From Advenella sp. FME57 (GTDB lineage Bacteria; Pseudomonadota; Gammaproteobacteria; Burkholderiales; Burkholderiaceae_B): 64,000 nucleotides of DNA. Each line of letters opens with the position of its first letter. Within the stretch, counting starts at the first letter, position 1. Under the pieces are notes generated by a model that saw only the letters and a list, made by a program, of their open reading frames with translations, was not told the DNA's origin and did not search any database. The translations under genes were made by a program, and so were the position numbers. Location of the stretch: positions 62,001 to 126,000 of the forward strand of contig NZ_JABUXU010000002.1 in the NCBI RefSeq assembly GCF_014897675.1, read 5' to 3'. Of this stretch, positions 59,156-60,436 are shown in pieces.

Positions 59156-59356
59156 CGGGATATCGATGAGAGCAGGGCACCCCGGCGGGCCGCGATTACA
59201 TTTGTCGATATGCGTTCATATAGCGAGCAGGCGGACGCCCGAGAGTTCGCTGCCGACCGTGCCGTTTTCTGATAATTCAATCGCAAGAAAACGATTGCTT
59301 GCGATTGAATTGACCTCTATTCTGATCATGACGGCCATACTTCCAGGAGATCGATC

Positions 59357-60436
59357 ATGACATCAACCCAAGCACACGCCCAATTTACTTCCGATGAAGC
59401 TCGCTGGCAGGCCGTGCAAAGTCGCAATCGAGATGCGGACGGACAATTTGTCTATGGTGTAAAGACCACGGGGGTGTATTGTCGGCCCAGTTCTTCGGCC
59501 CGCCTGCCACAGCGAAAAAATGTCGTTTTTTTTGATACGGCGCAAGAGGCCGAGGCAGCAGGCTATCGCGCCAGCCGCCGCGCGCGGGCGGACCGGACTG
59601 CCGCCGCAGACGAACGTGCTGACCTGGTGGCCAGGGCCTGTCGACAAATTGAATCGGCGCAAACGCCGCCCAGCCTGGATGAGCTGGCGGCACAAGCCAA
59701 TATGAGTCCATTTCATTTTCATCGCGTTTTCAAGGCTGAAACCGGTGTCACACCGAAAGCCTATGCATCGGCCTGGCGTGCCAGGAAATTGCGCGATGAG
59801 CTGGGATCGTCAGTCACGTCGATTACAGACGCAATCTATACGGCAGGCTTCAATTCCAACAGCCGCTTTTACGAAGCGTCCGAGCAGTTGCTGGGTATGC
59901 GCGCCCGGGAATATCGGGCTGGTGGGCAAGGCGCTGTCATCCGGTTTGCCATCGCGCAATGTTCGCTGGGCGCCATTCTGGTGGCGCAAAGCCACCGTGG
60001 CATCTGCGCCATTATGCTGGGTGATGATCCCGATATGTTGTTGCGCGACTTGCAGGATCAGTTTGCCAGGGCCCAGCTTGTTGGGGGCGATGCCGCCTTT
60101 GAGCGTCTGGTGGCGCAAGTGATCGGTTTTGTAGAGACGCCGTCTGTGGGCCTGAACCTGCCGCTCGATGTCCGTGGTACGGCTTTTCAGGAGCGAGTGT
60201 GGCAGGCATTAAGGGATGTACCAGTTGGTACGACCGTCAGTTACGGTCAGATTGCCGAGCGGATCGGGGCGCCCACCGCTGTGCGCGCCGTTGCCCAGGC
60301 TTGTGGCGCCAACCGCATTGCCGTTGCCATTCCCTGTCATCGCGTGGTCAGGCGCGATGGCGATATTTCAGGCTATCGCTGGGGCGTAGAACGCAAGCGC
60401 CAGTTGCTGGAGCGGGAAGCGATCACGCAACCGTGA
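59357..60436 (+). CDS. ada: Ada, bifunctional DNA methyltransferase/regulator with a degraded zinc site
   Basis: 359 residues in full Ada layout: an Ada-type N-terminal domain (1-80), an AraC-type helix-turn-helix (about 95-185, FHFHRVFKAETGVTPKAYASAWRARKLRD) and an O6-methylguanine-DNA methyltransferase domain (about 195-355) with IPCHRVV (active Cys about 327). The N-terminal domain keeps one cysteine, Cys42 (E. coli Cys38). The other three zinc ligands are Ser46, Ser73 and Ala76. The O6-alkyl repair site is intact. It is preceded by AGGAG and stands alone. Confidence 0.92.
   Translation: MTSTQAHAQFTSDEARWQAVQSRNRDADGQFVYGVKTTGVYCRPSSSARLPQRKNVVFFDTAQEAEAAGYRASRRARADRTAAADERADLVARACRQIESAQTPPSLDELAAQANMSPFHFHRVFKAETGVTPKAYASAWRARKLRDELGSSVTSITDAIYTAGFNSNSRFYEASEQLLGMRAREYRAGGQGAVIRFAIAQCSLGAILVAQSHRGICAIMLGDDPDMLLRDLQDQFARAQLVGGDAAFERLVAQVIGFVETPSVGLNLPLDVRGTAFQERVWQALRDVPVGTTVSYGQIAERIGAPTAVRAVAQACGANRIAVAIPCHRVVRRDGDISGYRWGVERKRQLLEREAITQP

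Follow-up and report, generated by a model that had tools for sequence, protein, structure and literature searches.

The window, a 64,000-nucleotide stretch of the Advenella sp. FME57 genome, contains an ada-like gene on the + strand (59357..60436). According to its ORF and to Pfam and NCBIfam matches, the 359 aa product combines a zinc-less N-terminal domain, an AraC helix-turn-helix (HTH) part and an O6-methylguanine methyltransferase (MGMT). NCBIfam names the protein Ada (PRK15435, 465.9 bits at a cut-off of 345), and Pfam matches PF02805 with 102.7 bits (cut-off 23) as well as the AraC and MGMT domains. The N-terminal or A-box domain, which has no zinc ligands, spans residues 11–80 (59387..59596, +; PF02805 at residues 15–77). 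It is followed by the AraC-type DNA-binding part at residues 84–190 (59606..59926, +; PF12833 at 110–188, PF00165 at 99–136), in which residues 169–173 read SRFYE. The PCHR motif of the methyltransferase lies at residues 326–329. Its cysteine, Cys327 (codon at 60335..60337, +), is the methyltransferase acceptor and the switch proposed below, and it is present in all 47 members of a thinned set of zinc-less proteins.

Four cysteines of E. coli Ada hold the zinc that activates Cys38 for phosphotriester repair and switching. The first-pass annotation had claimed that only one of them is left in the window protein, and our alignment with E. coli Ada (L113) bears this out. At a constant offset of four residues, Cys42 (codon at 59480..59482) keeps the former methyl-acceptor position of E. 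coli Cys38, while the other three are replaced by Ser46 (59492..59494, E. coli Cys42), Ser73 (59573..59575, E. coli Cys69) and Ala76 (59582..59584, E. coli Cys72), all four codons being read directly from the + strand. The AraC part and the MGMT active site, described there as surviving beside the lost zinc site, are indeed intact, as judged by the Pfam domains and the PCHR motif. The window protein is 52% identical to E. coli Ada (PRK15435; structures 1adn, 1wpk, 1zgw, 1u8b and 1sfe) and has the same order of PF02805, AraC HTH and MGMT domains and the same PCHR active site, but it reads C-S-S-A where the E. coli protein has four zinc cysteines.

The annotation had allowed for the missing cysteines lying elsewhere in the domain, or for an assembly error. 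Since residues 11–80 hold one cysteine (Cys42) and no histidine, the ligands have not been relocated within the domain. An assembly error or a pseudogene is ruled out by the open reading frame, by the C-S-S-A pattern common to all six full-length Adas found among 10 genomes of the genus, and by the dN/dS values for these six members (N-domain 0.091, AraC part 0.057, methyltransferase 0.070); the AraC half, for which a check on purifying selection had been suggested, is thus constrained as well. Retention of a metal through other ligands could draw on acidic residues, several of which are common in the clade (Glu57 in 35, Asp60 in 37, Glu66 in 43 and Asp79 in 41 of 47 proteins), but with a lone cysteine and no histidine in the domain we regard such a site as extremely improbable. 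The window Ada therefore likely lacks methyl phosphotriester sensing, as far as its residues tell.

For a comparison of the four positions across homologues, as the annotation had recommended, we assembled a set of 218 Ada-family proteins, drawn from samples at genus, order, class and phylum level, a scan of named genomes (the best 80 of 575 loci) and plasmid records (14 of 116 with a match). They comprise 109 proteins of the zinc type (CCCC), one with three cysteines, 88 zinc-less proteins that keep only the acceptor, 7 without acceptor and 13 without N-domain. With the zinc-less window protein itself serving as query in the named-genome, order and phylum searches, relatives are over-represented and 88 in 218 overstates the frequency of this type; the figure nevertheless argues against drift of a single gene. 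Zinc-less proteins with acceptor make up 5 of the 61 classified proteins of the order sample (67 matches) and 9 of 43 in the phylum sample (47 matches). In the class sample, where E. coli Ada served as query, there was one among 21 classified (22 matches), and this one came from the window's own genome. Pseudomonas contributes 44 of the 88 loci, and others belong to Cupriavidus, Ralstonia, Bordetella (B. petrii), Dyella, Dokdonella, Cellvibrio, Marinobacter, Collimonas and Caballeronia; a Polyangiaceae MAG (L065) is one further carrier. Within the window's genus, all six full-length Adas (the window protein and L004–L008) are zinc-less, and no full Ada was found in the other four genomes, which are smaller (2.6–3.3 Mb). 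Two of the 7 acceptor-less rows (L222, L144) probably represent truncated proteins or ones without the domain; they were omitted from the clade counts together with L157, which falls outside the zinc-less group on the tree. L157, from a Pantoea dispersa plasmid, has lost all four N-domain cysteines (F, R, S and D instead), and its gene is preceded by an A box and a B box. One four-cysteine protein (L142) was dropped by the length filter. There were three duplicates (L140 of L224, L256 of L203, and the L160 match of L038), of which only L140 was removed before the A-box count described below.

A second, zinc-type Ada domain that takes over sensing is not a general solution, as just six zinc-less genomes, out of 17 searched, have a strong second PF02805 domain (G289, G695, G858, G872, G834 and G887; all four-cysteine). 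The six Ada-bearing genomes of the window's genus have, besides Ada, at most one weak PF02805 match each. By eye, L331, L336 and L345 appear to be four-cysteine Ada domains fused to an AlkA-like part in genomes that also encode a zinc-less Ada, and L350, L337 and L338 resemble a further Ada with a PCHR domain.

Upstream of the window gene, a repeat search revealed a palindromic operator (59274..59311, +) with 17 nt arms (59274–59290 and 59295–59311) that are 94% complementary. One half-site, AATT-N5-GCAA at 59274–59286, consists of an A box (AATT, 59274–59277) and a B box (GCAA, 59283–59286), and it is mirrored at 59299–59311 by a B box (TTGC, 59299–59302) and an A box (AATT, 59308–59311). E. 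coli ada also has AATT-N5-GCAA 5' of its own gene, but there the mirror TTGC is not accompanied by a mirror A box. The palindrome is present 5' of ada in all six Ada-bearing members of the genus. A pattern search of the window's genome with CGCAAGANNNNNNTNCTTGCG, allowing 3 mismatches, proved too loose (574 matches versus 406 for a reversed control), and a 39-base profile and an A+B+X pattern were used in its place. In this genome the profile finds the window site with an E-value of 5.2e-8, the site itself being among the 25 that built the model. The sole sigma-70-like match of a promoter scan lies elsewhere, and none was found at the operator.

Outside the genus, the typical arrangement is different: most zinc-less ada genes are preceded by a site like GAATTYRACCGCAAGANNCGGAGTG, that is, an A box, five bases, a B box and then CGG. 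This CGG may correspond to the X box of Kamat et al. It is absent from the ada operators of the window's genus (6 of 6), which have the full mirrored A+B half-site instead. A mirror TTGC is found at 26 zinc-less sites. The nine that lack CGG all have a complete mirror A box as well, compared to 5 of the 17 with CGG, although six of the nine come from the window's genus and two of the 17 (L038 and L160) are one sequence.

In the reading that we favor below, the N-domain would serve as a metal-free reader of the A box. To avoid circularity, sites were located by the B+X core alone and the A box was read afterwards, within 35–135 nt 5' of the start for domain-bearing loci and within a wider range for domain-less ones, whose starts are unsure. 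A site was located in 85 of 88 zinc-less, 85 of 109 zinc-type and 10 of 12 domain-less loci examined, and ATT stands at its A-box position in 72, 74 and none of them, respectively; the domain-less L224 has AAT there, on a weak core. Fisher tests give 1.1e-7 for zinc-less versus domain-less and 0.83 for zinc-type versus zinc-less loci, p-values that are weakened by the relatedness of the sequences. The starred branches of the tree provide three independent pairs of domain-bearing and domain-less proteins, none of them contrary, but three cannot reach significance. It is possible that the A box is conserved partly through shared ancestry, which we count against the A-box reader. A second point counts against it as well: in P. 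putida, according to Mielecki et al. 2013 (PMC3788762), deletion of the A-box ATT from the alkA promoter did not abolish induction.

A tree of residues 82–359 was built from 117 rows thinned by identity, with nine long-branched rows excluded by name. In the free tree the zinc-less proteins form nearly one group, but not strictly a clade, as some zinc-type rows lie inside. When the 54 zinc-less rows and the domain-less L220 were forced into one clade, the log-likelihood was 44.6 better than that of the free tree (p-AU 0.833). A single origin of the zinc-less type is therefore not rejected and is compatible with these data, while the clade is not proven. Five four-cysteine Adas from Pseudomonas (L049, L063, L066, L078 from a P. 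putida strain, and L094) resemble the window protein in SRFYE and in 65–69% identity, but differ in having all four zinc cysteines. L220, from the window's family, has lost its N-domain and adjoins two zinc-less Bordetella petrii proteins (support 91). Together with L217, L218 and L219 it belongs to a set of Adas from this family that lack the N-domain and have B+X-like sites without ATT at the A-box position.

Such losses raise the question of whether the N-domain of the zinc-less proteins is itself a decaying leftover, which would effectively reduce the window protein to a methyltransferase. Several Ada lineages have shed the domain entirely, the starred branches force at least three changes, and with L220 one loss falls among the zinc-less proteins of the window's own family. 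Decay is nonetheless very improbable in view of the low dN/dS of the domain, the A box in most located operators and the 18 invariant positions among the 67 examined (13–79) in the 47 thinned zinc-less proteins. E. coli Ada contacts DNA through Thr34, Arg45, Arg67 and Arg71 (four residues further on in the window protein). Invariant positions in the thinned set include Arg16, Trp17, Thr37, Thr38, Gly39, Arg49, Pro51, Phe59 and Arg71, and Arg75 is kept in 46 of 47; on the tree, Arg49 and Arg71 are unchanged in all 54 zinc-less rows. By these sequence comparisons, the N-domain is under strong constraint.

In an AlphaFold2 model, the Ada N-domain fold appears to be kept. Block pLDDT values are 89–96 over residues 11–70, and Foldseek matches the predicted structure to 1u8b, 1zgw, 1wpk and 1adn, with an rmsd of 2.1 over 64 columns between the N-domain and 1adn. 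The prediction says nothing on metal, and for the whole protein (mean pLDDT 78.1, pTM 0.37, 39 sequences) it does not fix the placement of the domains. Residues 71–80, which include two of the three lost ligands, reach a pLDDT of only 66, and we count this against the A-box reader.

The conservation of the former acceptor demands a separate explanation. Of 92 zinc-less proteins counted, 88 retain Cys42 (codon TGC in 80, TGT in 8), as do 43 of the 47 thinned members; Ser73 is present in 42 of these 47. Cys42 changes four times on the tree, versus 8 changes at position 46, 6 at position 73 and 14 at position 76, and is thus kept more than a useless residue should be. Cys42 could therefore still be a sensor, a free thiol that is methylated by phosphotriesters without metal or modified directly by small alkylating or oxidising agents, tuning binding to the A box. 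The invariance of the nearby Thr37-Thr38-Gly39 fits this idea. So do the four members that lack Cys42 (L045, L059, L075 and L098): three of them have an operator core, but only L075 has ATT at the A box, suggesting that the acceptor and the A box may tend to be retained or lost jointly. However, L045, L075 and L098 retain Arg49, Arg71 and Arg75 (L059 has lost Arg75), so the acceptor seems dispensable there, a conclusion to which the two A-box-less loci are opposed. L045 and L075 also have alkB neighbors, and L075 has an A+B+X site. The near-equal conservation of Ser73 indicates that packing of small residues may explain part of the retention. A cysteine outside a zinc thiolate is, moreover, a weak nucleophile for a phosphotriester. 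All in all we hold a sensor role for Cys42 to be possible, if on the unlikely side; its retention is the main fact that our preferred placement of the switch at Cys327 leaves unexplained.

The operator also occurs at other genes of the genus. With the 39-base profile (25 sites, including this genus), ada ranks first in all six Ada-bearing genomes, and at lower ranks a site 5' of a stand-alone ogt-type methyltransferase appears in three of them (E-values 0.02–0.07). Inspection of the ogt promoters (L022 on G000:C22 and its orthologues L018–L021 and L023) revealed an A+B+X site in five of the six genomes, while the remaining one has a degenerate copy. Each of those five contains a single exact A+B+X match, always 5' of ogt; the genome with the degenerate copy and the four Ada-less ones have none. 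One-mismatch and exact matches taken together occur in the searches of 9 of the 10 genus genomes, and the one-mismatch matches include those at the oxygenase operon described next. E. coli ogt, in contrast, is constitutive according to PMC3788762. Four genomes (G003, G004, G005 and G007; families named for G005) have a third site, weaker than the other two, 5' of an operon that encodes two PF09859 oxygenases and a small Ada-like protein. This third site scores 14–16, versus 12–14 for the best match on each of 30 background strands; in G007 the score is 14, so that this site rests on its conserved place. The A-box position reads TTT in three of the four genomes, again a point against the A-box reader. 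The window's genome has this operon close to the end of a contig, and no site was evident there (L362). We thus propose ada, the stand-alone ogt and the oxygenase operon with its small Ada-like protein as candidate targets in the genus. Unlike in E. coli, the ORFs next to the window gene are not alkB (by eye); the AlkB of this genome (L122) is encoded on another contig, and no operator was seen there by eye. Elsewhere, 67 zinc-less loci come with about 2.5 kb of flank, and in 52 of these an alkB, oxygenase, alkA or MGMT gene is a neighbor on the same strand.

The small Ada-like protein, referred to as HC3 in this text, is a 90-residue PF02805-like polypeptide in which His28, Cys39, Cys72, Cys75 and a glycine at the acceptor position, Gly35, are invariant in 16 aligned copies. 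Judged by these residues, it is the mirror image of the zinc-less domain. This small type, with Gly at the methyl-acceptor position and represented by L002 (G000:C46:10950-11198, minus strand), L359, L360, L361 and L370, sits behind PF09859 oxygenase genes and an Ada-type operator, and HC3 genes also adjoin zinc-less ada in other genera. A stretch of 1.1 kb or more 3' of ada could be inspected in 86 zinc-less and 82 zinc-type loci (26 further zinc-type loci were too short). An HC3 gene, 0–769 nt from ada, is present there in 15 of the former, two of them partial matches of short length, and in none of the latter, with one unlike 35% match (L154) set aside. By genome, HC3 has 6 carriers among 17 of the zinc-less type, 1 among 40 of the zinc type and none among 8 domain-less ones; the 15 genomes without a strong Ada match lack it as well. 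As far as these counts go, HC3 is associated with the zinc-less type. One could therefore imagine that the lost ligands act in trans, HC3 supplying them to, or sensing for, the zinc-less domain. This is quite improbable, however, since 11 of the 17 zinc-less genomes lack HC3, including G008 of the window's genus, and five of the six zinc-less carriers belong to this single genus. The invariant histidine, moreover, suggests that HC3 has a complete site of its own. Not being obligatory, HC3 is not a general answer to the loss of the ligands.

On balance, we lean towards the reading that the window protein functions as an Ada, both in regulation and in O6-alkylguanine repair, that its zinc-dependent phosphotriester sensor has turned into a metal-free A-box reader, and that its switch is most likely Cys327. 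By the charge argument made for the zinc center of Ada, an N-domain without [Zn(Cys)4] would need no methylation to approach DNA. It could then be a fixed reader of the A box, with the AraC part reading the B box and, at other promoters, also the X-box-like CGG. The on-signal would arise when Cys327, in the C-terminal domain, takes a methyl group from O6-alkylguanine, as in Caulobacter Cada2, and alkylation would induce the proposed targets by this route. In E. coli Ada, by contrast, Cys38 takes the phosphotriester methyl group and the affinity for DNA rises (PMC3788762 and PMC10957082), a switch that cannot work as described once the zinc ligands are gone. We place the switch at Cys327 because the surface that reads DNA, the A-box site and the cysteine of PCHR are still under constraint, and because Cada2 offers a precedent: methylation of its PCHR cysteine is the switch, and a Cys-to-Gly exchange there renders it constitutive (Kamat et al. 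2024, PMC10957082).

The comparison with Cada2 is one by analogy. Both proteins combine an AraC part with an MGMT carrying PCHR, the GCAA B box followed by CGG recurs in this genus at ogt, and a switch on the MGMT cysteine is what we propose for the window protein. On the other hand, as described in PMC10957082, Cada2 has neither an A-box domain nor an A box, both of which are found for the window protein, and the spacer between GCAA and CGG is three bases there and four here. Cada2-like proteins carry an RLHD motif (same paper), whose letters are absent from the window protein; its SRFYE at residues 169–173 may be the counterpart of the RLHD stretch. We also considered that the zinc-less proteins are a third kind of adaptive-response regulator, intermediate between E. 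coli Ada and Cada2, in which a lone thiol senses alkylating or oxidising agents or in which sensing is shared with the HC3 protein of one regulon, and regard this as rather doubtful.

Our search of titles and abstracts in the open-access literature, with subscription papers outside its reach, returned no description of a zinc-less Ada. The zinc-thiolate switch of Ada is the textbook case of DNA-damage sensing by irreversible self-methylation. That a wide group of relatives keeps the A-box domain and the A-box operator without the zinc ligands makes this group a case for asking whether metal, methyl acceptor and DNA reading are separable in the Ada N-domain. With zinc-type, zinc-less and, among the latter, domain-less proteins (L220) on one tree, it also allows one to ask how the switch could move from one end of the protein to the other.
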